NCBI RefSeq assembly: GCF_025398315.1
Contig: NZ_JAODOQ010000001.1
Span: 3,782,001 to 3,846,000 of the forward strand
Direction: 5' to 3'
DNA length: 64,000 bases
Origin: Shewanella phaeophyticola
GTDB lineage: Bacteria; Pseudomonadota; Gammaproteobacteria; Enterobacterales; Shewanellaceae
The position numbers and the translations under genes were made by a program. The notes under the pieces were generated by a model. It made no database searches and was not told the DNA's origin. It saw only the letters and a list, made by a program, of their open reading frames with translations. Positions 13,401-29,745 of the stretch are shown piece after piece; position 1 is the stretch's first letter; the number at the start of each line of letters is the position of its first letter.

Positions 13401-15392
13401 TTACAACAGGTAGCTGAAATTCAGCATGACCTGATGGGCGCTATAGTTATGATTTAACTCACCTAAAGTGATAAAGCTTGTCGTTTCATCAAGCGACATT
13501 TGTGCGTCATCAGTGTCGTAATAACGCTCATAGCGGTAAGTCAGTTTGAGTGCCATTTCGTTACTCAGGTTGTAGTTTGCGTACATGTTGACGCTGTGGT
13601 TGTAGGAGTAATAATCACCATAGGGCGTCGTACCTGTGCTGGTGATATAAGTGTCGCTGTTTGAGTTGCTAAACAAGTAGTCAGCACCAAGAGTCAGCTT
13701 GTTTTGGAGTAATCCACCGTAGTGAATACCGGTGCCGATATTGATAAATTCATCTTCAACGTCGGTATACCAGTCAGCTGTGCTATAACTTTGGCTACTC
13801 GCTTGCGCTGAATTAATCCATTGCTGACTGGCAAAGCCATATAAGCTGACATGTTTAGAAACAGTGGCATTAAGGTTAAGGTTGACGCCGTAGTCTTCTG
13901 ACTCGGTTAAGCCTATAACGGTGTCGTCGTAATCATCTTTGGCGTAGTGTGCACTGATGTCGACGCCTAACCAGTTGAGCGGGGTGTGGTTAATACTTAA
14001 CTCAACATTATTACGGGTTCTGTTGGCCAGGTAGTATTTGCGCATTAAGGCGTTTTCTTCTGACGAGGTTAGCTCATCAGTTTGGTACGTTGAGCCATCA
14101 CGGTTGCTGTGCTCTGCTTTAATATCAATAATAACGTTGTCTATAGCGCGAATAGACAATTTGCCCCATAGCGTATCGTCATGGGTTTCTTCACGGACAC
14201 TGTAGCTTCTGTCTATTTCTTCACGGTCGTAACCCGCTTGTAGGCGATAACCCTGGCTTATGCGGTATTTGGCGTTGAGCTTATACGTTGCACGCTCAAT
14301 GTCAGTAGCAATGTTTTCTTTAAAGGTGTCGTTTAAGTCATTAAAGGTGTATTGCTGAAATTCAAATACTGAGCTGTTGTTTTCGCGGTTGCTGTAGTCG
14401 TAGCTACCACCCACACGTAAACGATTACTCAACATTGATGACACTTTTAAGGTGGCATCTGTGGTATCAACTTCGCCATCCCAATTTTGTATGGGGTTGC
14501 CGTTCATTGAGATTAAGTCGTCATCTTGTATCATCCGGCCGACTATAAAACGGCCAGACATCACGGTGCTGTCTAATTGGTATTGACCCGAGAGTGAGAC
14601 TTGATGCGCTTCATTGTCTGGTGCTGCGGCATAGACATCGTCTAAATAAGTGAAGCTTAAATCCTGGCTGTTATTGTCGTACTGGCTTACAAAATAACTG
14701 AGTTCGGTAAGCCAATTAGCCCCATTTACTATCGCGCCTGCGGTAAATGAATCGGTGGTTGAGTCAACCACTAAGCCAATGTTAACAGGGCTTGGGTTCA
14801 TCACGCTGCTACTGGTGTAACCTGACTTATCTTCGGTGTCAAACTGCACATAACCTTGATACATGTCGTGTTGCACTTCAGCTTGCAAGGCCATTTTTTC
14901 ACGTTGCTGAGAAAGCTCAAACGCGTATGGCAAGGTGCTGCCAACAAGCGTGCCCTGGTCATAATATAAATTGCTTTGCGCATCACCCGATTGATATGTG
15001 GTGATTAACTGATAGCCGGCGTCGATGTTAAATAATCCCGGTTTACCGGCGCTCATCAAAGCAAAGCTGTTTTCGTAGCCTAATTGGTGAGTTTGAAACT
15101 TAGCTTGGTAGCCATCAGCATTTTGGTATTGCACGTCAGCATTGGCCGTGGCAACAAAGCCATCCTGGTCAGTACCGAATGCATTGGCCGCATGCACATC
15201 ATCACTTTCAATGTAGCCTGCTGCCACACTCACGTTACCGCGATAGCCTGAGTTCACTTCACAGCGCTTACATTGATAGTTTTGCTGGTCAACCTGAGTG
15301 ATATTGGCCTGACTTACGGCAAAATTCGCTGACAGTACTGGCGCAGACGCGAGCAATAATGAGGCGGTAATAATATTGAGTTTAAAATTCAT
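13401..15392 (-). CDS. dmsF: Outer-membrane beta-barrel DmsF (MtrB/PioB family)
   Basis: This outer-membrane porin would sheath the decaheme cytochrome DmsE so that electrons cross to DmsA on the cell surface. It has a signal peptide ending near SAPVLSA, a CxxC motif (CKRC) soon after it as in MtrB proteins, many alternating amphipathic strands and a terminal aromatic-rich strand (VMLNFSYLL). An ATG at 15407 overlaps the dmsE stop, but the ATG at 15392 has an AGGAG site at correct spacing and begins the signal peptide, so I chose it. The product is about 663 residues. Confidence 0.92.
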   Translation of the reverse strand: MNFKLNIITASLLLASAPVLSANFAVSQANITQVDQQNYQCKRCEVNSGYRGNVSVAAGYIESDDVHAANAFGTDQDGFVATANADVQYQNADGYQAKFQTHQLGYENSFALMSAGKPGLFNIDAGYQLITTYQSGDAQSNLYYDQGTLVGSTLPYAFELSQQREKMALQAEVQHDMYQGYVQFDTEDKSGYTSSSVMNPSPVNIGLVVDSTTDSFTAGAIVNGANWLTELSYFVSQYDNNSQDLSFTYLDDVYAAAPDNEAHQVSLSGQYQLDSTVMSGRFIVGRMIQDDDLISMNGNPIQNWDGEVDTTDATLKVSSMLSNRLRVGGSYDYSNRENNSSVFEFQQYTFNDLNDTFKENIATDIERATYKLNAKYRISQGYRLQAGYDREEIDRSYSVREETHDDTLWGKLSIRAIDNVIIDIKAEHSNRDGSTYQTDELTSSEENALMRKYYLANRTRNNVELSINHTPLNWLGVDISAHYAKDDYDDTVIGLTESEDYGVNLNLNATVSKHVSLYGFASQQWINSAQASSQSYSTADWYTDVEDEFINIGTGIHYGGLLQNKLTLGADYLFSNSNSDTYITSTGTTPYGDYYSYNHSVNMYANYNLSNEMALKLTYRYERYYDTDDAQMSLDETTSFITLGELNHNYSAHQVMLNFSYLL

Positions 15393-15406
15393 TGTGTGAC
15401 TCCTCA

Positions 15407-16352
15407 TTAACGCTGCAATGTGCTGCCAGCAGGGTGGTTAGAACCATGAATTTGGCTGTGGCAATTTAAACAACTTTTACCGCCACCAAAGGCGTCCACG
15501 CCTGGTTGCTGCACTACACGACTGGCATGGCCGTCATCGGCATGACATTGCTGACACAGTTGAGGTGCACGATGGGTGAGCATGCTTTCGTTTACGCTAC
15601 CGTGCGGGTTATGGCAGGTAACGCAGTTTTCGGTGACTGGCGCATGTTCCCACAGAACGGGACCACGTTTTTCGGCATGGCAGCTGTAACATGTGTCATT
15701 AATAGAAGGTTTGTTTAACGCGCTTTCGGTCATTGACCCATGTGGTGAATGACAATCGATACAGGTCATTTTGATCCCATTTCATTGGGTGACTAGAGCG
15801 TTTGTTCATGTCTGCTTTTTCACGTGTATGACAGTTGGTGCAGGTGTCGTTGACGGTGAGTTTTTCAAGTGCAGGGTCGGTTGCGGCATGGACAACATGA
15901 CAATCGGCGCAGGCAATGTCTTCAAGGTTGTGAGTGCTGTTATGCCACGCCATTTGCTTGGCATCATTGTGACACCCCTGGCAGACTGTATTTTGAGTTT
16001 GCGTAGACAGTTTGCTGTTTTGGCCAAACTGGATCATTGGCTCTTTACCACCGCGGTTGTGATTACCTAATGATTCATGACATGCTTCGCATTGTAGGCC
16101 TGCCATAGGAGATGCTGAGTTGGTGACATTGCCATGAACACCTTTAAAAATGTCCATTACTTTGTCATTTTTTTTATGACACATTAAGCAGCTATCAGCA
16201 CCTTTAGGTGAATAGTTACCCTCTGCAAATTTTTCAATGAGTGTTGTTTCTAGTTGCTCTGCAGTTAAATCGTCCCATGGTAATGCATGAGCACTTTGCA
16301 TTACGAATAACACACATCCAAATAATATGAATAATTGATACAGAGATCTCAT
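15407..16352 (-). CDS. dmsE: Periplasmic decaheme c-type cytochrome DmsE (MtrA family), frameshifted
   Basis: This decaheme cytochrome carries electrons from the periplasm through the DmsF barrel. A signal peptide ends near AHA. Five CxxCH motifs lie in the first frame (CLMCH, CEACH, CQGCH, CADCH, CTNCH) and five in the second (CIDCH, CYSCH, CVTCH, CQQCH, CLNCH), ten in all as expected. Removing one A from the AAAA run near 15767-15771 joins them as MKWDQMTCIDCH, giving 314 residues. It is the first gene of the dms operon. Confidence 0.93.
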
Positions 16353-16598
16353 TTTAAATATCTCCTTAAAACGATGTAATTAGCGTTCATGTCATTACCT
16401 GTAAGGAATAGCTTAATTAATATTAATGCATGCATTATTGATAAAAACTAATCGAAATTTTATACATATGAATATTAGATTTAATTAATGAGGGTGTTAA
16501 TTACGCATACCTAATTACCCTTCCCTCAATCTAGAAATAATTAAAACAAAACTTCTTTACAAAAACTTACATACGCATATAAACAATGACAAATAACA

Positions 16599-16614
16599 TG
16601 TGATTAACTTAACA
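16599..16614. promoter_or_regulatory. CRP-like site (TGTGA-N6-TAACA)
   Basis: This matches the CRP half-sites at nine of ten positions (right arm TAACA instead of TCACA). It lies about 250 bp upstream of dmsE and 180 bp upstream of the divergent regulator. Confidence 0.4.
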
Positions 16615-16647
16615 AATATATAAACTAAGAGAATCACAACAAAGGTT

Positions 16648-16663
16648 AGTGACAAAAATCACA
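16648..16663. promoter_or_regulatory. CRP-like site (AGTGA-N6-TCACA)
   Basis: This matches TGTGA-N6-TCACA at nine of ten arm positions. CRP is the main activator of anaerobic respiration genes, including DMSO reductase, in Shewanella oneidensis. Whether it serves dmsE or the divergent regulator is undecided. Confidence 0.55.
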
Positions 16664-16794
16664 GATACAATAAAAGCGTGATCGTCACCACACATAAACA
16701 AAGCGTAATGCAATGAGACTTGTTAAAGTTAAATAAGGTTTCTAAAGTGAATGACTGTTCAGTTATTTACAAAAAGCTATCAAGGCGAATTCAT

Positions 16795-17586
16795 ATGGCA
16801 TTAGTTATGTCTTTAAACTCTGACATGAAGAGTAAATCAACAATATTTCTTCCCGATATAGTGAAACCTGAGATTATGAGCTTTATTAAAGATCACGGTC
16901 ACAGTATCTCCTTAAAAAAGGGGGAGTTAATCCCCAAAAGTATCTTACTTAACAATTTCATATATTTAAAATCAGGACTTTTGTTCTATATAAAGAGAAC
17001 AAACAATTACACCAAACCTAAATTCGTTAATGTGATAACGCCTAATAGATTGACTGATTATCATTTGTTATTAGAAAATAACTGTACATGTTGTAAGAGT
17101 ATAAAAGTGGCAAGAGATAGCGAACTCATAATTGTAGATAAATCATTGATAAAAAACCTTATAAAAGATGATATCGAACTATTTACTCAATTTATGTTTG
17201 ATGCCAATTATTTTACAGAAAGGCAAACGGCACTGGCTATTTTTTTGCTGACATCATCTCCAGAAGATAAGTTGATAAAGTTTTTATTTGATATGCTTGT
17301 CGTTTATAACACTGAATTTTCATCACTTTGGCTGACAATTAACATCAAGCTTACTCGAGAAGAAATAGCGGATATTCTTCACATTAGTGTCATCAAATTA
17401 GATTTAATGATGGGAAGCTTAAAAAAACAAGGCTTGGTCACAAAAGAAAATGGACTCCTCTGCGTAAACACAGCTCTATTTAACGAATTATCCCCATGCC
17501 CTTTAGGCAGAGAGGATGCTCAAGGCTGCAAATCTAACAACATGTTGAAATTTAAGGTAAAAAACATGATTGAAATTAACAATTGA
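16795..17586 (+). CDS. Crp/Fnr-like transcriptional regulator, divergent from dms
   Basis: This protein of about 263 residues has an N-terminal cupin-like sensor half (HSISLKKGELIP...YLKSGLLFYIKR) and a C-terminal helix-turn-helix (LTREEIADILHISVIKLDLM followed by LKKQGLV) typical of the Crp/Fnr superfamily. It lacks the FNR N-terminal cysteine cluster; a CTCC group sits mid-domain (near residue 100) and further Cys lie near the C-terminus. A TTG frame begins at 16720, but the ATG at 16795 has an AAGG site nine bases upstream and starts the folded region. It is Lys-rich and more AT-rich than its neighbours. Control of dms is inferred from position only. Confidence 0.7.
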   Translation: MALVMSLNSDMKSKSTIFLPDIVKPEIMSFIKDHGHSISLKKGELIPKSILLNNFIYLKSGLLFYIKRTNNYTKPKFVNVITPNRLTDYHLLLENNCTCCKSIKVARDSELIIVDKSLIKNLIKDDIELFTQFMFDANYFTERQTALAIFLLTSSPEDKLIKFLFDMLVVYNTEFSSLWLTINIKLTREEIADILHISVIKLDLMMGSLKKQGLVTKENGLLCVNTALFNELSPCPLGREDAQGCKSNNMLKFKVKNMIEINN

Positions 17587-17837: not shown

Positions 17838-19217
17838 TTAATGCCCTTTTAAACGTCGGCTCAGGGCGCTTTGGCTGATCCCCAATATTTGCGCTGCCGC
17901 GGTTTGGTTGTTTGCGGTGCGACTCATGGCCTCATCGACTAATGCCTGGTTCATTTGGGCAATTGTCGGCAGTTGCTTGGGGAAAATTATCGTATTAAGT
18001 GGAGTATCATTCATTGATTTATGTTCATTAATCGCTTCCATAAAAGGGCTGGTATTGAGGGCAATACCATCACTTCTGCTTACTGCATCAAACACCATGC
18101 CTTTGAGTTCGTGTAGATTGCCAGGAAAGTCATAATTGGCCAACTGCGTGGCTAAATCTGCAGGTTGAATGGGGGCGGGTAAATTCATTTCTGTTGCAGC
18201 TAAGGCAATGAAATGATTAATCAACATTGAGATATCTAAGCGCCGTTCAACTAATGGCGGTAATTTAATTTTATGGACGCGCAGACGATATAAGAGATCA
18301 CTTCTAAACTTACCCGCTTGGTGAAGTTTAAGTAAATCATCCTGAGTGGATACCACAAATTTACATTTTACTGGGTAAGCGGTATCGCTGCCTAAAGGAT
18401 AGTATTGTTTGGTTTCTAATAAGGTAAGCAGCTTAATCTGAGCATCGAGCGGTAACGCACCAATTTCATTAAGATAAAGCACGCCACTGCCGACTTGATG
18501 CAGTAACCCTGCAACAGCTTCTAGCTCGCCATTATTATGATGATAAAGCTTGCCACACATTTTTTGTTCAAAGTATTCACTGCTAATCCCAGCAAGATTA
18601 ATACTCAATAGCGGTTCATTTGGGCTATAGAGTGCATGACATGATTTGGCAAACTCACTTTTACCTGTTCCGCTAGCACCATAAATTAACAGTGGTTCAG
18701 GGCTGGCAGACACGGCTTCAAGGTAGCGAAATTGATCTAATAATATCGGCTCACAGGTCAAAATATTATTAAATGCTTGCGGGTTTTCTAGGGTGCGGCT
18801 TAAAAACTTCTCTTTAATATATAAATAGTTACGCTCAAGCCCAACGACCTCAAGTGCACGGCGAACTGTACGCGCAAGGTCGTCAACATCATCGGTTTTA
18901 ATAAAGTAGTCGTAGGCGCCATTTTTAATGCAACGTACCGCGGTGTCGACTTCATTCACGCCGGTGACAATAATGACCCGAGTATTGGGAAAATCACTGC
19001 GAACCATGGCTAAAATGTCTTCGCCGGAATGAAATGGCATCGTTAAATCAACCAACACGAGGGCGTAGTCGCCCACTTGTAATCGATTTTGCACTTGGCG
19101 GCTATCAATACAAGTGTCAATTTCAGCCTCTGGCACCAACCTGTTAAGGGTTATTGCTAAAGTGCGTAACCAGGCAGCTTCATCGTCGACTAACAAAATA
19201 TTTCGGGCTAGTTTCAT
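17838..19217 (-). CDS. AAA+ response regulator lacking the GAFTGA loop
   Basis: This 459-residue NtrC-like regulator pairs with the kinase just upstream (3-base gap). The receiver has Asp11/12, phosphoacceptor Asp57 (VLVDLTMP) and Lys107. The AAA+ domain has a Walker A GASGTGKS at 180-187, but the sigma54-contact loop GAFTGA is absent (the aligned stretch reads about HHNNGE near 226-231) and the Walker B segment reads VLYLNEIG, with Asn where Asp is usual. A Fis-type helix-turn-helix ends the protein (AAAQILGISQSALSRRL). By analogy with HupR and TyrR-type proteins it may act without sigma54, which is inference. It probably controls the divergent fccA. Confidence 0.88.
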   Translation of the reverse strand: MKLARNILLVDDEAAWLRTLAITLNRLVPEAEIDTCIDSRQVQNRLQVGDYALVLVDLTMPFHSGEDILAMVRSDFPNTRVIIVTGVNEVDTAVRCIKNGAYDYFIKTDDVDDLARTVRRALEVVGLERNYLYIKEKFLSRTLENPQAFNNILTCEPILLDQFRYLEAVSASPEPLLIYGASGTGKSEFAKSCHALYSPNEPLLSINLAGISSEYFEQKMCGKLYHHNNGELEAVAGLLHQVGSGVLYLNEIGALPLDAQIKLLTLLETKQYYPLGSDTAYPVKCKFVVSTQDDLLKLHQAGKFRSDLLYRLRVHKIKLPPLVERRLDISMLINHFIALAATEMNLPAPIQPADLATQLANYDFPGNLHELKGMVFDAVSRSDGIALNTSPFMEAINEHKSMNDTPLNTIIFPKQLPTIAQMNQALVDEAMSRTANNQTAAAQILGISQSALSRRLKGH

Positions 19218-19220
19218 TGC

Positions 19221-21185
19221 TTACTCTTTTGCTAAGGCAAACGTTAAGCGAATGCGGGTACCTTTACCCACACTCGACATCATTTGCATTTCACCTTGAT
19301 GTTCTTTAATAATTTTACTGCAAACAGACAACCCTAACCCACTGCCACCTTCATGACGTCTTGTGGTAAAAAAGGGCTCTGTAATCCTTTTTAAGGTCGC
19401 ACTATTCATGCCGCAGCCATTATCTGTAATGCTGAGTATGGCAGTTGTGTCTTGAATACGGGTTTCAATTTCAATAACACCTTGCTGTTCAGTGCAGGCA
19501 TTACACGCATTTTGAATAAGGTTAATTAGCACTTGCTGTAACTGCTGAGCATCGCCATTAATACAGGGCTGTTGCTCTGTCAGCTGAGTAATAACCTGAT
19601 GAAATTTGGTTTGATTTGCCGTCAAACGCAACGTTACTTGCACCACATCATTAAGACACACTTGCGTATATGCATCGGCAATATGTGGCATAGCATAGCG
19701 CTTTAAATCATTAACAATTCGGCTGATACGTTTAGCCGCGTCTTCAATAGAGCCACAACTGTGCTGCAGTTCTTTGATGGCAATGTCGGGCTGTAATCCT
19801 GCAACAAGCCAAAAAGGATTTTGCTTTTGGTAATATGTCGCCGCGGGTGATATGTCTTTCATCGCCGCACTAAATAACGACACGGCATGGACGATAAGCC
19901 CAGTCGGGTTATTAATTTCATGGGCAATCCCCGCAGATAATTCACCCAGTGAAGCAAGGCGACTGGCCTCTTCGTTTGCTTGACGTAACCTGTGTTGCTC
20001 GGTTGTCTCTTCAAGCAAAATAACCACTTGTTCTTGAGCGATGGGGTAAATTTGTAACTGCCAAAATTGTTGCTGGTAACGCATGTCTGCAATAAATGAC
20101 TTTTGACTGGATAACACATTTAGCACGGCCGTTTTAAGTACAAATATATCGTTGTCTATGTAGTAAAATGCGTCTGAATCTAACAAATATATATTGTTAT
20201 CGTTACTCCATAAGTGTTGCAAGTCTTTACTGACGATGGTCACGCCATTAGGGATGCCATCGAGCACAGATTGAAACTGCTGTGACAGTTCAGAGATTTC
20301 CGCTTCAATCCGCTTACGTTGGATCAATTCGGCATCTAGTGTGTGGGTTTTACGACGTAAACTCGCGCTAATAAACCCAGTGTAAATAAGGCCGGCACCT
20401 GAAATGATTGCCACGATAATCGCCAGCGCAAACATTCGCTTTTCGCTAAATGTTAAATCCACTTTTTCGCGTCCGGTACCAAACCATTTATTAACTAATT
20501 GGTCGTATTCGCCCGATAACTTAAGTTGTCTCAGCGCCTCATTAATTTGGTACATTTGCTCGGATTTACTACTATTGGCAACAAAATTAAATGCACCATA
20601 AATTAATGCATCACTTGAGCTACGTACCGACGGGTACATTGGCAATAAGCGCCGCGCAACAAAGCTTTCTGCAATCACGACATCAACTTGGTTTGTTATC
20701 AGTAATTGAAAACCTGTTTCATACAGATCAACATCAACCCGATCAAATTTTTGCAGTTTGTCAGATAAATACACATCAACAAACGCGCCATTTTTAATGG
20801 CGACACGCTTATCCACTAAGTCAGCCCAATTATTAATAAGCGCCTTTCCTTGCAAGGTATAAGCTTTGGCATGGGTAGCATAAATAGGGTCAGATTGCGC
20901 TAACTGACGATCCATATTGACCGGACTCACCACGGCAATCACATCAATGTCGCTGTTTGGGTTATGAACATCATTTAACAGTTGCTGAAAACTCTTGCGC
21001 CGAACAATAATTCGCGTATTGGTTAGCTGGCCGATTCTGTTCAATAGCTCAACATTAAAGCCCTGATCAACCCCGTTATTGCGCCACTCTAAAGTGGCCG
21101 TATTTGAGTGCACACCAAATACAATGCTGTCTTGCGCCAGCACTGGCAAGGTAAAGAATATAATGAAAAACAATATCAATCTCAT
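19221..21185 (-). CDS. Sensor histidine kinase with periplasmic solute-binding domain
   Basis: This 654-residue kinase has a signal peptide (to about 18), a periplasmic SBP_bac_3 domain (20-240; IVFGVHSNTATLEW...YDQLVNKWFG), one membrane segment (251-271), a coiled-coil linker, a PAS-like region (about 300-395), then HisKA with His422 in AGIAHEINNP and an HATPase with NLIQNACNAC, DNGCGMN and GGSGLGLSV. It is the first gene of a two-gene operon with the AAA+ response regulator and diverges from fccA, so a small organic-acid ligand such as fumarate is a reasonable but untested guess. Confidence 0.9.
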   Translation of the reverse strand: MRLILFFIIFFTLPVLAQDSIVFGVHSNTATLEWRNNGVDQGFNVELLNRIGQLTNTRIIVRRKSFQQLLNDVHNPNSDIDVIAVVSPVNMDRQLAQSDPIYATHAKAYTLQGKALINNWADLVDKRVAIKNGAFVDVYLSDKLQKFDRVDVDLYETGFQLLITNQVDVVIAESFVARRLLPMYPSVRSSSDALIYGAFNFVANSSKSEQMYQINEALRQLKLSGEYDQLVNKWFGTGREKVDLTFSEKRMFALAIIVAIISGAGLIYTGFISASLRRKTHTLDAELIQRKRIEAEISELSQQFQSVLDGIPNGVTIVSKDLQHLWSNDNNIYLLDSDAFYYIDNDIFVLKTAVLNVLSSQKSFIADMRYQQQFWQLQIYPIAQEQVVILLEETTEQHRLRQANEEASRLASLGELSAGIAHEINNPTGLIVHAVSLFSAAMKDISPAATYYQKQNPFWLVAGLQPDIAIKELQHSCGSIEDAAKRISRIVNDLKRYAMPHIADAYTQVCLNDVVQVTLRLTANQTKFHQVITQLTEQQPCINGDAQQLQQVLINLIQNACNACTEQQGVIEIETRIQDTTAILSITDNGCGMNSATLKRITEPFFTTRRHEGGSGLGLSVCSKIIKEHQGEMQMMSSVGKGTRIRLTFALAKE

Positions 21186-21325
21186 GCGCTAATGTTACCG
21201 ATTTAATCTATTCGAAACTGTGCAGCATTCCGCATATGAGTAAATCATTATGTAATCAAAGTGAGATTAATTAAAGTAGGTAAATCAACAAGAAGCTGAC
21301 CTGAACTCAGTAACATTACATTCAA

Positions 21326-21341
21326 TGTGACCCTGATCGCT
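21326..21341. promoter_or_regulatory. Weak CRP-like site upstream of fccA (TGTGA-N6-TCGCT)
   Basis: Eight of ten arm positions match the CRP consensus. CRP control of fumarate reductase is known in Shewanella, which supports the call. Confidence 0.35.
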
Positions 21342-21347
21342 ATCCGC

Positions 21348-21363
21348 TATGCAAAAATGCATA
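21348..21363. promoter_or_regulatory. Operator 1, TATGC-N6-GCATA
   Basis: This is a perfect palindrome TATGCA-AAAA-TGCATA. It is repeated 30 bp downstream with the same arms and spacing, between the divergent kinase and fccA starts. Confidence 0.65.
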
Positions 21364-21377
21364 TACCCCTTTATAGC

Positions 21378-21393
21378 TATGCGTGTTTGCATA
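21378..21393. promoter_or_regulatory. Operator 2, TATGC-N6-GCATA
   Basis: The arms extend to CTATGC-N6-GCATAG. It lies exactly 30 bp (about three helical turns) from operator 1, which suits cooperative binding by a dimeric regulator on one DNA face. Confidence 0.65.
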
Positions 21394-21627
21394 GTTCATT
21401 TAAACGCTTGTGATTGAACAGGCATTTCTAGGCTCAATCTTAGCGATTTTATTGTGAGTATTGGCAGTGTGAGTAAGCTTAGTGTTAGCAATATAAATCG
21501 CAGGTCACTTAAACCATAAATGAACTGCATTTTTAAAGTGGCGTGATCAATTGTGCCATAGAAAACAAAAATAAAACTTCTATAGTTAATAGGCTTAACG
21601 CCATTTAAAAATAGAGAGGGGATACAA

Positions 21628-23418
21628 ATGAAAAAGATGAAACTTGCAGTCTGCCTTGCCACGCTAATGGGTAGCGCAGGCCTAATGGGTAATGCCGTAG
21701 CCGCCGACAACTTAGCCGACTTCCATACGCAAAACCAAGAATGTGATAGTTGCCACACTCCAGACGGTGAGCTTTCAAATGACAGTTTAACCTTTGAAAA
21801 TGCGCAATGCGTATCGTGCCACGGCACCTTAGAAGAAGTAGCAGAAACCACTAAGCACGAACATTACAATGCTCATGCATCTCACTTCCCAGGTGAAGTG
21901 GCTTGTACTTCATGTCACAGCGCTCATGAAAAATCGATGGTTTACTGCGACTCATGCCACAGCTTTGATTTTGATATGCCATATGCTAAAAAATGGCAAC
22001 GTGACGAGCCAACGATTGCTGAGTTAGCTAAAGACAAATCAGAGCGCCAAGCAGCACTAGCAAGTGCCCCACGCGACACCGTTGATGTGGTGATTGTCGG
22101 CTCTGGCGGAGCGGGTTTCTCTGCGGCAGTATCAGCCCATGACAATGGCGCTAAAGTCATTTTAATTGAAAAAGAACCCGTTATTGGTGGTAATGCTAAG
22201 TTAGCAGCAGGCGGTATGAATGCAGCTTGGATCGATCAACAAAAAGCCAAAGACATTAAAGATAGTCCAGAGTTAATGTACAAAGACACCATGAAAGGTG
22301 GCCGTGACTTAAACGACCCTGCATTGGTTGAAATTTTAACATCTCACTCAAAAGGCTCAGTTGATTGGATGACCCAAATGGGCGCAGATTTAAATGACGT
22401 TGGCCGTATGGGCGGCGCATCAGTTAACCGTTCACATCGTCCAACGGGTGGTGCAGGTGTTGGTGCTCACGTTGTGCAAGTGCTTTATGATAATGCCGTT
22501 AAACGCAATATCGACTTACGCATGAACACTCGTGGTATCGAAGTGCTTAAAACTGATGACGGTAAAGTCAAAGGTATCTTGGTTAAAGGTATGTACAAAG
22601 GTTATTACTGGGTGAAAGCCGATGCTGTTGTATTAGCAACGGGTGGTTTCGCTAAAAATAATGACCGCGTGGCTTCGCTTGATCCTAAACTAAAAGGCTT
22701 TATCTCTACTAACCAACCAGGTGCAGTAGGTGACGGCTTAGATGTAGCGGAAAATGCCGGCGGCGCGTTGAAAGACATGCAATATATTCAAGCACACCCA
22801 ACGTTATCTGTTAAAGGTGGTGTAATGGTCACTGAAGCGGTACGCGGTAATGGTGCCATTTTGGTTAACCGTGAAGGTAAGCGTTTTGTAAACGAAATCA
22901 CCACTCGTGATAAAGCCTCTGCGGCCATCTTAGGACAAACCGGTAAATCAGCATTCTTAATCTTCGATGATTCAGTCCGTAAATCACTGTCTAAAATCGA
23001 TAAGTATATTGGTTTAGGTGTTGCACCATCAGCTGACAGCTTAGTGAAACTAGGTGAAATGGAAGGTATTGACGGTAAAGCATTAACTGAAACCGTTGCC
23101 CGTTACAACAGCTTAGTCACTAGCGGTAAAGACTCTGATTTTGAGCGTCCTAACCTACCTCGCGCACTAAACGAAGGTAACTACTACGCAATCGAAGTGA
23201 CTCCTGGTGTTCACCACACTATGGGTGGCGTGATGATCGACACTAAAGCCGAAGTAGTGAATGCTAAGAAACAGGTTATCCCTGGTTTATATGGCGCTGG
23301 TGAAGTTACTGGTGGTGTTCATGGTGCTAACCGCTTAGGTGGTAATGCGATTTCAGACATCATCACCTTTGGTCGTTTAGCAGGTGAAGAAGCTGCAAAA
23401 TATTCTAAAAAGAACTAA
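21628..23418 (+). CDS. fccA: Periplasmic flavocytochrome c3 fumarate reductase
   Basis: This soluble periplasmic fumarate reductase of 596 residues is the main fumarate terminal reductase of Shewanella. It has a signal peptide (cleaved near AVAA), four heme motifs in the N-terminal cytochrome domain (CDSCH, CVSCH, CTSCH, CDSCH) and an FAD-binding domain beginning [16 protein letters not shown]. Active-site residues of the family are present: His in QAHPTLS, Arg in TTRDKASAA, His in GVHHTMGG and Arg in GANRLGGNA. Length and sequence strongly resemble the S. frigidimarina enzyme from memory. It receives electrons from CymA, which is not in this window. Confidence 0.96.
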
Positions 23419-26072: not shown

Positions 26073-27430
26073 TTAATTGACTAATACACCGCCGTTTGGA
26101 TCGATATCCAGGCGGCGCATGGTGCGAATAAGGTTACTTCGGTCAAGTTTTAGCGTTCGTACGACAGCGGCCAAATTGCCGCGTTTTTTCGCTAAAACTG
26201 CACAAATAACATGACGTTGATATTGATCGGTAGAGTCGCGTAAGCCATAGCGACAAACTTGTGCTAGCTCAATCTCTGCCGGGCTATCAACTTGAGTTAC
26301 AGGAGCCAACTCTGCAGCCACTTCTGGCTGATTAACAGCAAACTCAATCCCAAGATGAACACAGCCAATACTAATAATACTGGCAAGACGGCCTTGTTCG
26401 CTTATTGCCCGTAACGCAGCGCGACTCAATAAGTGTTCTAATTCGCGCACATTGCCCGGCCAGTCATATTGCATAAGTTGTTCAATCGCCGTTTGCTGTA
26501 ACCTCAGTTTGGCGACGCCCAATTGATGCTGACTTTTTTCGAAAAAATATCCTGCCAGTAAAATAACGTCTTTACCGCGCTCGCGTAATGGCGGCACAGG
26601 TAAAGGATAAACACTCAAGCGGTGATACAAATCCGCCCTAAAACGCCCTTCTTTCACTTCTTGCTGTAAATGGCGATTTGTCGCGGCAATAATTCTCACA
26701 TCAACCACAATAATCTTATCGCTACCAACGCGTTGAATTTCACCATTTTGCAGTGCACGCAATAGTTTAGCTTGTTCCGCTAATGGCAACTCGCCCACTT
26801 CATCTAAAAATAACGTGCCGCCATCGGCTAATTCAAAACGGCCACGGCGATCACTCACCGCACCAGAAAATGCCCCTTTAACATGACCAAACAGCTCGCT
26901 CTCTACAATACTTTCAGGTAATGCTGCGCAATTGATTTGTACCAGGGGTTGTAGATTACGCCGTGATTGTTGATGAATACTCTTTGCCTACGCCGGTTTC
27001 ACCGGTAATCAACACCGACAAATCACTATTAGCAACCGTATCAATTTCGGCCTGTAATGGTTAATAGCTGCACTTTTACCAATAATGCTTGAGAGATCCA
27101 TAAGGTCGCTTGAGCTACCTGGTGGCTTTGTTCAATTTTGGCCTCTAGTGCTTCAATGTGCTCACGGGTTTTAATCGCTGCAGCTACCCCTGCAATATAT
27201 GCTCGGGTTTCGGTAGGATTGAGGGCATCAAAGCTGCCTGCTTGCATCGCATCTAGGGTGAGCCCCACCACCGCAACAGGCATCAAATAATCGTGTTTGA
27301 GCTTTAATAACACCACTGCGTCACAAGGAATTGCACGTTGAATCGCTTGAATAAGTCGTAAATAACGCTCCGATTTAGCCAGATCGCGATTTAAGTCTTC
27401 TACAATATCAATGAAAGGTGAAATATTCAT
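26073..27430 (-). pseudogene. norR: NorR-like nitric-oxide regulator, multiply disrupted
   Basis: The start (27430) encodes the beginning of the NorR GAF domain, and 26858-26073 encodes the second half of the AAA+ domain (GTLFLDEVGELPL) and a C-terminal helix-turn-helix. Several lesions are visible. The GAF domain jumps from MPVAV to GLTLDAM, losing about 70 residues that in E. coli NorR hold most of the iron ligands. The linker near 27115-27125 seems out of frame. A T is missing at NHLQAEIDTV (about 27053). About 13 bases are missing right after Walker A (GETGVGKE, near 26980), which breaks the frame. The loop reads GAFSGA. The homopolymer loss could be error; the deletions are harder to dismiss. 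Confidence 0.8.
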
Positions 27431-27589: not shown

Positions 27590-28786
27590 ATGTTAGACAC
27601 TGCAACTGTTCAAATGATTAAAGCCACCGTACCGGCATTACAAATTCATGCTAATGACATTACTAGTCATTTTTACCCTTTATTGTTTGCCCAGCACCCT
27701 GAAGTGTTACCTTATTTTAATCAAACTAACCAAGGTAAAGGCACTCAACCTAAAGCGTTGGCGAACGCAGTGATTGCCTATGGCGCCAATATTGATGAGC
27801 TAGGTAATTTAAGTGACGCCGTAAGTAAAATTGTTCAAAAACACACTGCATTAGGCATTTTTCCTGAGCAATACGACGCGGTCGGTAGCTGTTTATTGCA
27901 GGCCATTAAAGCCGTATTAGGCGACGCTGCAACAGATGAAGTGATTGATGCCTGAGTCAAAGCTTATGGTCAATTGGCTAATATTTTAATTGCCGCAGAA
28001 GAGTCGGTTTACACAGCAAATGAGCAAAAAGAGGGTGGCTGGCGCGGCGAGCGTGAATTCATTCTAGTTAAGCGTGAAGATGAAAGCTCGGTTATCACCT
28101 CATTTTACTTTCAGCCTTTTGATAACCAAGGCTTACCCGATTTTGACGCGGGACAATTTTTAACCATCGTGTTTGACGATATCGATGGCGTAGCAGTGCG
28201 TCGTAACTACAGCTTGTCAGATGCCGCAGGCAAAGATTACCTAAGAATCAGTGTTAAACGAGAGCCAAATGGTGTGGTATCAAACCATTTATACAATAAT
28301 ATTCAGCTCGGTGACAAAGTTAAGCTTCGTGCTCCTAGTGGTGATTTTACCCTACGTAGCAATACTAAACCGCTAGTTTTATTAACCGCAGGTGTAGGCA
28401 TTACTCCAGCCATCAGCATGCTCAATACCGCTGCAGGGTCTGGCCGTGACATTCGCTTTATTCATGCCGCAATTAACAGCGACGTACATGCCTTTAAACA
28501 GCATGTAGATACTCTTGCCGCAGGCAACAACAATATCAAACCACTATACATTTACAGCCAGCCACAAACGCATTGCCAACCTCATGCAACAGGCTTTATT
28601 GATGCTTCATTCATCGAAGCGCAATTGCCAGCAGATCGCGATGTAGAGTTATATGTCCTCAGTCCTATTGGCTTTATGAAATCCGCATTAACTATCGCCA
28701 CCAGCCTAGGCATCCCAAACAACCAGATCCATTATGAGTTCTTCGGCCCAGCAGAATCATTAATGCCAATCAGGATAAATAAGTGA
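27590..28786 (+). pseudogene. hmp: Flavohemoglobin (NO dioxygenase) with in-frame stop
   Basis: The globin domain (1-121) has the proximal His in IVQKHTALGI and distal-pocket residues. An in-frame TGA at 27953-27955 replaces the Trp expected in the conserved AWxKAYG motif (read here IDA-stop-VKAYGQLAN), and the same frame then continues through the linker, FAD domain (RRNYSLSD) and NAD domain (GVGITP) to 28786. The NAD-domain CGP motif reads LSP, another departure from the family. Full read-through length would be 398 residues, normal for Hmp. It is divergent from the damaged norR. A nonsense mutation is likely unless the base call is wrong. Confidence 0.85.
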
Positions 28787-29013: not shown

Positions 29014-29038
29014 TTAATTCGTTGCGTTAAGCTGTAAA

Positions 29039-29745
29039 TTAGAACGGAATATCATCATCCCAACCTTCATCCAAATCTGGAGTGAAGTTTTGTGCAGGCT
29101 GTGGCGCTGGGCGTTGAGCCGGTGCATTTTGCGGTTGGAAGTTACCTTGTGGAGCCGCGGCAGGCTTAGGCGCATAAGCAGGAGCTTGCTGTGCTGGTGC
29201 TGATGCAGGTTGTTGATAACCACCTTGTTGGCTCGCATTAGGCTGGCATCATGGTAAGTATTGGTATTGCCAGCAGGTGCTGCCTGGTTATTGTACTGAG
29301 GCGCACGTTGCTGAGGCGCTGCAGCTGGTGCTTGGCGAGCTGGCTGACCTTGGTTTGAGTTATAAGCGTTTTGGTTATATTGACCACCCGCGTTATCACC
29401 CGAGTTGCGACTGTCTAGCATTTGCATTTCCATCGCATTAATTTCGGTTTTGTAACGGTCTTGACCTGTAGTTTGGTCCTGCCACTTGCTGGTTTGCAAT
29501 TTACCTTCAAGGTAAACTTTAGAGCCTTTCTTTAAGTACTCACCTGCAATTTCAGCAAGACGACGGTACATTACAATGTTGTGCCATTCTGTGCGCTCTT
29601 GCACTTGACCTTGCTGGTCTTTCCACGACTCACTTGTCGCTATTGTAAAGTTGGCTACGGCATTGCCATTTGGCATGTAACGAACCTCAGGATCTTTACC
29701 TAAGTTACCGACCAAAATCACTTTATTCACACCACGACTCGCCAT
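29039..29745 (-). CDS. ssb: Single-stranded DNA-binding protein, frameshifted in the linker
   Basis: The essential SSB tetramer coats ssDNA in replication and repair. The OB fold is intact (about residues 5-110: [39 protein letters not shown]), followed by a Gln/Ala/Pro linker. The given frame runs off to nonsense after TYHDAS, but adding one C to the CC near 29248 ([14 protein letters not shown]) restores the linker and the conserved acidic tip DDDIPF, ending at 29039. Corrected length about 235. An SSB lacking its tip would not be viable, so this is a sequence error. It neighbours uvrA, as in many gammaproteobacteria. Confidence 0.94.

Follow-up and report, generated by a model that had tools for sequence, protein, structure and literature searches.

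A conserved promoter module of paired palindromes and CRP-like boxes upstream of fccA in Shewanella and the two-component system predicted to act on it

The window considered here, a 64,000-nt stretch of the Shewanella phaeophyticola genome, contains the fumarate reductase gene fccA next to a divergently oriented pair of regulatory genes. On the forward strand, fccA (21628..23418) codes for a tetraheme flavocytochrome c3 fumarate reductase (best PDB match 1qjd, E = 0; TIGR01813 above cut-off). On the reverse strand lie the genes for a sensor histidine kinase of 654 aa (19221..21185; Pfam domains SBP_bac_3 and HATPase_c, with HisKA below cut-off) and for a response regulator of 459 aa (17838..19217). 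The regulator consists of a receiver (PF00072), an AAA+ domain of the sigma54-activator type (PF00158), a lid (PF25601) and a Fis-type HTH (PF02954), each over its cut-off and in the order found in sigma54-dependent activators of the NtrC/DctD type. Between the kinase start (21185, reverse strand) and the fccA start (21628) sit two palindromes, located at 21348..21363 (TATGCAAAAATGCATA) and 21378..21393 (TATGCGTGTTTGCATA), which have no assigned strand and are predicted to be dimer sites of the response regulator. Both match TATGC-N6-GCATA exactly and their starts are 30 bp apart, in full agreement with an earlier note on this DNA that had described two palindromes with the same arms and the same spacing.

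Several other genes of the window look split or frame-shifted by eye (15407-16352, 26073-27430, 27590-28786 and 29014-29745), affecting a multiheme cytochrome, a NorR-like regulator, a flavohaemoglobin-like pair and an SSB whose C-terminus is odd; this points to base errors in the assembly. The kinase, regulator and fccA ORFs are intact. The region 13401-17586 contains ORFs for an MtrB/PioB-type porin and a multiheme cytochrome and resembles DMSO- or metal-reduction clusters; a neighboring gene there shows a CRP-like HTH just under the Pfam cut-off.

Lone TATGC-N6-GCATA sites are not commoner than chance, as the window holds 33 single sites with at most two mismatches vs. 45.8 in shuffles, and the 4.79-Mb genome holds eight exact single sites, where an independent-base model with 42% GC predicts about 5.5 and the reversed control gives two. 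As a pair, the two palindromes are genuine and vastly exceed chance expectation: the independent-base model predicts about 6e-6 exact pairs with 30-bp spacing per genome and one was found, while this genome contains no second 30-bp pair even at up to three mismatches. Over 68 promoters the motif sharpens to TATGCA-N4-TGCATA and most arm columns are invariant. This extended palindrome was found in one to four copies per genome in 12 genomes, with zero to two copies outside the fccA pair; the reversed control gave none in 11 of these genomes and one in the remaining genome.

Among 129 genomes of the genus, a full-length ortholog of the regulator (65-100% identity) was identified in 68. The other regulator matches among those listed reach at most 44% identity, with the exception of a broken 82% copy in genome G071, which also carries an intact ortholog, and the best regulator E-value per genome shows the same gap between orthologs and non-orthologs. 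The fccA genes fall into two groups, comprising 68 genomes at 78-100% identity to fccA of the window and 46 genomes at about 61-66%; in addition, the sole fccA relative of G086 is found at 45% and 14 genomes are without a match at threshold. The genomes that carry the regulator and those that carry window-type fccA are the identical 68 of 129. In 67 of these 68, the regulator and fccA matches share a contig and are separated by 2.3-2.7 kb, and the kinase was located between them in 40 of 45 loci.

An alignment of fccA upstream regions had been proposed in the earlier note as a check on the co-occurrence of the palindromes and the two-component system, whose connection would be contradicted by palindromes in front of fccA in genomes without the two-component genes. 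Upstream regions of 991 bp were compared for 69 window-type genes (68 genomes, one of them with two copies) and 46 genes of the other type. The 30-bp pair (at most three mismatches) is present in 68 of the 69 and in 0 of the 46 regions; yet this presence/absence split coincides with the two fccA types and may therefore reflect few events. The lone miss is S. gelidii (G033), whose fccA and regulator are situated on separate contigs. Searched for anywhere in the genome, the loose pair occurs in 81 of 129 genomes, 13 of which belong to the 61 without the regulator, compared to 6 for the reversed control. The pairs of these 13 genomes carry two to three mismatches among the matches listed, and none of them lies upstream of fccA.

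The pair is embedded in a longer conserved arrangement, whose TGTGA boxes (21326, 21409) and core promoter (21452-21480) are absent from the earlier note. CRP-like box 1 (21326..21341, forward strand, TGTGACCCTGATCGCT) starts 22 bp before palindrome 1, and CRP-like box 2 (21409..21424, forward strand, TGTGATTGAACAGGCA), which has a degenerate right half, starts 31 bp after the start of palindrome 2. Across the 68 promoters, TGTGA is found at the offset of box 2 (+61 relative to palindrome 1) in 68 cases and at the offset of box 1 (-22) in 57, with a count of 6 for the next offset. Compared with TGTGA-N6-TCACA, box 1 shows 1-5 mismatches of 10 (8 in one promoter) and box 2 shows 2-5, and certain copies of box 1 are good CRP palindromes (TGTTAGCTCGCTCACA). 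CRP-like sites with at most two mismatches were detected upstream of window-type fccA in 54 of 69 regions (~12 in shuffles) and upstream of the other fccA type in 20 of 46 (~7 in shuffles). Their enrichment in front of both types indicates that CRP is not specific to the four-box module.

Further downstream, the forward strand carries a predicted -35 element of the fccA promoter, TTGTGA (21452..21457), and, after a spacer of 17 bp, a predicted -10 element, AAGCTT (21475..21480; family consensus nAaaAT). They are located at offsets +104 and +127 from palindrome 1, where the mean mismatch to TTGACA (2.29) and to TATAAT (2.56), respectively, is the lowest among offsets 95-149. The T, T and G columns of the -35 element are conserved in 67 of 68 promoters each, as are A2 and T6 of the -10 element. 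Transcription is predicted to start near 21487 (+139 from palindrome 1); relative to such a start, the palindromes would lie at about -101 and -131, flanked by box 1 at about -153 and box 2 at about -70. A consensus promoter scan of the window did not rise above shuffles and missed this conserved promoter, which is visible by alignment only.

Start to start, the order of elements is TGTGA, 22 bp, palindrome, 30 bp, palindrome, 31 bp, TGTGA, followed by the sigma70-type -35/-10, and all three steps are close to whole helical turns. Judged from its sequence conservation, this four-box arrangement with its -35/-10 elements is a putative rigid composite promoter module. The four-box pattern (at most three mismatches) was found in 67 of the 129 genomes, every one of which carries the regulator (67 of 68), and in none of the 61 regulator-less genomes, one of which is just 52% complete; the reversed control yielded 0 matches in 129 genomes. 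In G045, the 68th genome with a regulator, one extra base is present between box 1 and palindrome 1.

The module is also found at other genes. In G117, a second fccA on another contig is preceded by the four boxes and the -35/-10 elements, and no regulator ORF was found in the 14 kb covered there; a porin-like ORF, recognized by eye, follows this second fccA (L178:7564-8580). In S. gelidii (L099:3823-6797), the full module with -35/-10 in place precedes two genes, one coding for a heme-less flavocytochrome-like protein of 445 aa below the TIGR01813 cut-off and the other, located near the regulator, for a GPR1/FUN34/YaaH-type (satP-like) protein. The four-heme fccA of S. gelidii retains a single good palindrome, lacks box 1 and shows a box 2 that is shifted by 1 bp, and the regulator is kept in this species. 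Two loci of a sister genus exhibit the kinase, the regulator, a four-heme fccA-like gene, the pair and box 2, though no box 1, and one of the two is without -35/-10 at the expected offset; a third sister-genus genome gave no regulator match at threshold. One sister-genus locus carries a porin gene (Pfam) between the kinase and fccA (L164:3993-5051). An extra palindrome pair with one mismatch, which is not part of a full module, is located inside an ORF without Pfam match in G031 (G031:C17:236835-236880; L100:4836-4881), near integrase- and transposase-like ORFs identified by eye.

Paralogous kinase-regulator pairs in six genomes, including that of the window, lie opposite an FMN_dh-type gene whose start is Tat-like (two assigned by Pfam, the rest judged by the N-terminus), and their regulators show 36-43% identity. 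The intergenic regions contain the exact extended palindrome in three of six cases, the shorter motif with one mismatch in two and neither in one; these genomes are related, so the six loci are not independent. The recognition helices of the paralogous regulators are near-identical to those of the window-type regulators. Recurrence of the palindrome beside paralogous regulators at a different enzyme gene ties the site to the regulator. Two of the six paralogous regulators look broken; in the genome of the window, the paralogous regulator is distributed over two overlapping frames (G000:C1:761558-762370; L101:4547-5891).

Comparison of the regulator of the window with the NtrC-family structures 4l4u and 1ny5 revealed that the GAFTGA position holds other residues and that the Walker B Asp is replaced by Asn. 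In the 46 orthologs counted (the regulator of the window and those of 45 loci), GAFTGA is present in none and the Walker B Asp in none (41 Asn, 5 Ser), while all 46 retain the Walker A Lys and the receiver Asp, and the two arginine fingers are found in 46 and 44. Lacking both of these sigma54-activating parts, the regulator is not expected to act via sigma54, and a comparable loss is reported for NtrC of Rhodobacter capsulatus and Caulobacter (PMC10274813). In the 68 promoters, no conserved GG-N10-GC was found (the top offset reached 9 of 68), and the best match to the -24/-12 consensus has three to five mismatches of 10 in each promoter. A regulator with NtrC-type domains, no GAFTGA and predicted sites upstream of -35/-10 would fit the type that acts with sigma70. 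Fifteen distant relatives, which are 37-43% identical to the regulator of the window, retain both the Walker B Asp and the loop, as GAFTGA or GAYTGA, and their loci showed no four-heme fccA. In the two sister-genus regulators, the loop is gone and the Walker B Asp is kept. In the FMN_dh-facing paralogs, the loop is deleted in five of six and altered in one, and the Asp and the arginine fingers are gone in all six. A distant kinase-regulator pair in G059 (L175:518-6877), whose regulator is 32-34% identical and has the loop GAYTNA, is located near a FAD_binding_2 flavoprotein gene.

For the sensor domain of the kinase, the best matches among SBP relatives in the PDB are amino-acid-binding proteins, and its predicted structure is weak (mean pLDDT 61). 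R93 and E173 are invariant in 26 sensor sequences. Amino acid binders presumably carry an Arg at the place of R93 and, at the place of E173, an Asp that contacts the amino group; the invariant E173 does not favor a bare dicarboxylate as ligand. In at least 6 of the 15 distant loci, genes for aspartate ammonia-lyase (aspA), a dicarboxylate-type symporter, DcuA/B or TRAP components lie near the kinase among the neighbors selected by eye, and such dicarboxylate-related neighbors are a hint. Most plausibly, the sensor would respond to fumarate or a related C4 acid.

Taken together, these observations lead to a model in which the dedicated two-component system co-activates a sigma70-type fccA promoter together with CRP, a reading to which we assign a probability of roughly 0.7. 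In this model, the SBP domain of the kinase would sense a small molecule, for which fumarate or a C4 acid related to it is the most plausible candidate, and the kinase would phosphorylate the regulator, as suggested by the conserved domains and by the receiver Asp, which is invariant. Two regulator dimers would then occupy the palindromes, approximately three helical turns apart, as their co-occurrence suggests, and, jointly with CRP at one or both flanking boxes, would recruit sigma70 RNA polymerase. fccA could thus operate as an AND gate, with CRP reporting the general respiratory state and the two-component system the specific substrate. Activators, rather than blockers, usually sit upstream of the -35 element, and all four boxes are located there. 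The weak -10 (mean 2.56 mismatches of 6) and the position of the sites clear of -35/-10 suggest a need for activation, and the fixed phasing with the CRP-like boxes fits co-activation. The more specific proposal that a kinase with an amino-acid-type SBP fold serves as a fumarate sensor of a new kind, coupled to a former sigma54 activator that moved to sigma70 and partners CRP through a single rigid module which has spread to other genes, is tentative and falls somewhat short of even odds. As part of this proposal, the graded loss of the loop, the Asp and the arginine fingers among present-day relatives would represent stages of the move from sigma54 to sigma70.

Alternatively, the regulator might repress fccA until phosphorylation or the ligand relieves it. 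There is precedent in Caulobacter NtrC, which also is devoid of GAFTGA and represses some sigma70 promoters (PMC10274813), but neither of the predicted sites, at about -101 and about -131, overlaps with -35/-10, the weak -10 suggests that activation is needed and the constant phasing with the CRP-like boxes resembles co-activation, which makes repression unlikely. It was also considered whether the palindromes might be sites of some other regulator acting at window-type fccA, with the two-component genes as mere neighbors, since, judging by the CRP-like boxes, a global factor is probably active at this promoter as well, and the co-occurrence, matching the two fccA types, may follow lineage. 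However, the sites are also found at two non-fccA genes in S. gelidii and opposite FMN_dh-type genes beside paralogous regulators with near-identical recognition helices, and the extended motif is limited to one to four copies per genome in 12 genomes, unlike the sites of a global regulator, so that we regard this explanation as quite improbable. The earlier assignment of the palindromes to the adjacent regulator finds good comparative support in the co-occurrence, in the recurrence in G117 and S. gelidii and in the exact sites in three of six paralog loci, and binding by the regulator is predicted.

The earlier note had named both fccA and the operon of the regulator as targets. For fccA this is supported by the conserved -35/-10 elements on its side, but autoregulation gained no support. 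A site that controls the kinase-regulator operon with fccA as a bystander would be compatible with the divergent region; nevertheless, footprinting of the fccA side located the conserved -35/-10 there, the distance from the pair to the kinase is not fixed, ranging between 103 and 368 bp over 40 loci, and full modules distant from the kinase point at a reductase or transporter gene, leaving this arrangement with very little probability. Least credible of all is a classical sigma54 enhancer from which the regulator activates fccA. NtrC enhancers are tandem dimer sites, which the pair resembles, and the regulator carries the Pfam Sigma54_activat domain; yet GAFTGA and the Walker B Asp are both found in 0 of 46 orthologs, and a conserved -35/-10 exists in place of GG-N10-GC.

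The predicted sigma70-dependent co-activation by the regulator and CRP can be compared to several known systems. DctB-DctD and DcuS-DcuR are C4-dicarboxylate systems with other sensor folds, in which DctD acts via sigma54 and DcuR is not an AAA+ protein; control by a C4-dicarboxylate is presumed here as well. Kinases with an SBP sensor of the 3h7m type, a structure which we take to be that of a Geobacter protein, are represented by the distant kinase L170, which matches 3h7m with an E-value of 1.9e-71. The 15 regulators of such kinases are the distant relatives described above and thus share 37-43% identity with the regulator of the window, but they keep the GAFTGA-type loop and the Walker B Asp, and no four-heme fccA was seen there. 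TyrR and HupR belong to the GAFTGA-less NtrC-family regulators that act at sigma70 promoters. Further examples are the NtrC proteins of R. capsulatus and Caulobacter and a V. cholerae protein (PMC10274813). The regulator described here shares with this group NtrC-type domains without the sigma54 loop, its action with sigma70 being predicted, but differs in its link to a kinase, its fixed CRP-like array and its loss of the Walker B Asp in 46 of 46 orthologs. Acceptor-sensing two-component systems beside reductases are known in Shewanella, and ThsSR and TtrSR, which respond to thiosulfate and tetrathionate, likewise combine a periplasmic binding-protein-like sensor kinase with a regulator beside the reductase under their control, also in Shewanella. 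In contrast to the SBP_bac_3 sensor and NtrC-type AAA+ regulator found here, they use a PhnD-like sensor and, in the case of ThsR, a FixJ-like regulator (PMC5408782).

S. frigidimarina is among the regulator-bearing species, whereas no S. oneidensis locus came up among the regulator matches. The structure 1d4d, presumably the fumarate reductase of S. oneidensis MR-1, scores like the other fccA type (783 bits), and MR-1 seems to belong to the group without the two-component system. For fccA of MR-1, one study detected neither a CRP nor a MetR motif (PMC13393422); reduced cAMP impairs Crp and lowers FccA according to another (PMC5114592). In S. oneidensis, stimulation of fccA by fumarate is reported to be confined to the late phase of aerobic growth (PMC3633839), which suggests that another route exists there. 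The fccA homologue of S. piezotolerans WP3 shows 63% identity to MR-1 FccA and changes little upon loss of Fur (PMC3790847). The main text of a Shewanella regulon paper does not contain the terms "fumarate," "fcc" or "two-component," and gives two regulons, SO1415 and SO3627, for a "flavocytochrome c" (PMC3223726). No description of the present system was found among the papers listed on Shewanella or fumarate regulation and on GAFTGA-less regulators, a coverage that most subscription papers, such as early work on fcc of S. frigidimarina, fall outside.

Studies of Shewanella respiration usually take S. oneidensis MR-1 as their model, and the fumarate reductase of S. frigidimarina is a structural standard. 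Roughly half of the genus (68 of the 129 genomes), S. frigidimarina included, appears to rely on a dedicated switch that cannot be observed in MR-1, and regulator-bearing Shewanella probably switch on fumarate respiration in a manner that remains invisible in the best-known species. The module yields testable predictions on how CRP may be combined with a specific sensor, and how an activator changes its sigma factor could be studied through the stepwise loss of sigma54 parts. The larger finding is a rigid composite promoter that combines CRP-like boxes with predicted sites of a regulator which appears to have abandoned sigma54.
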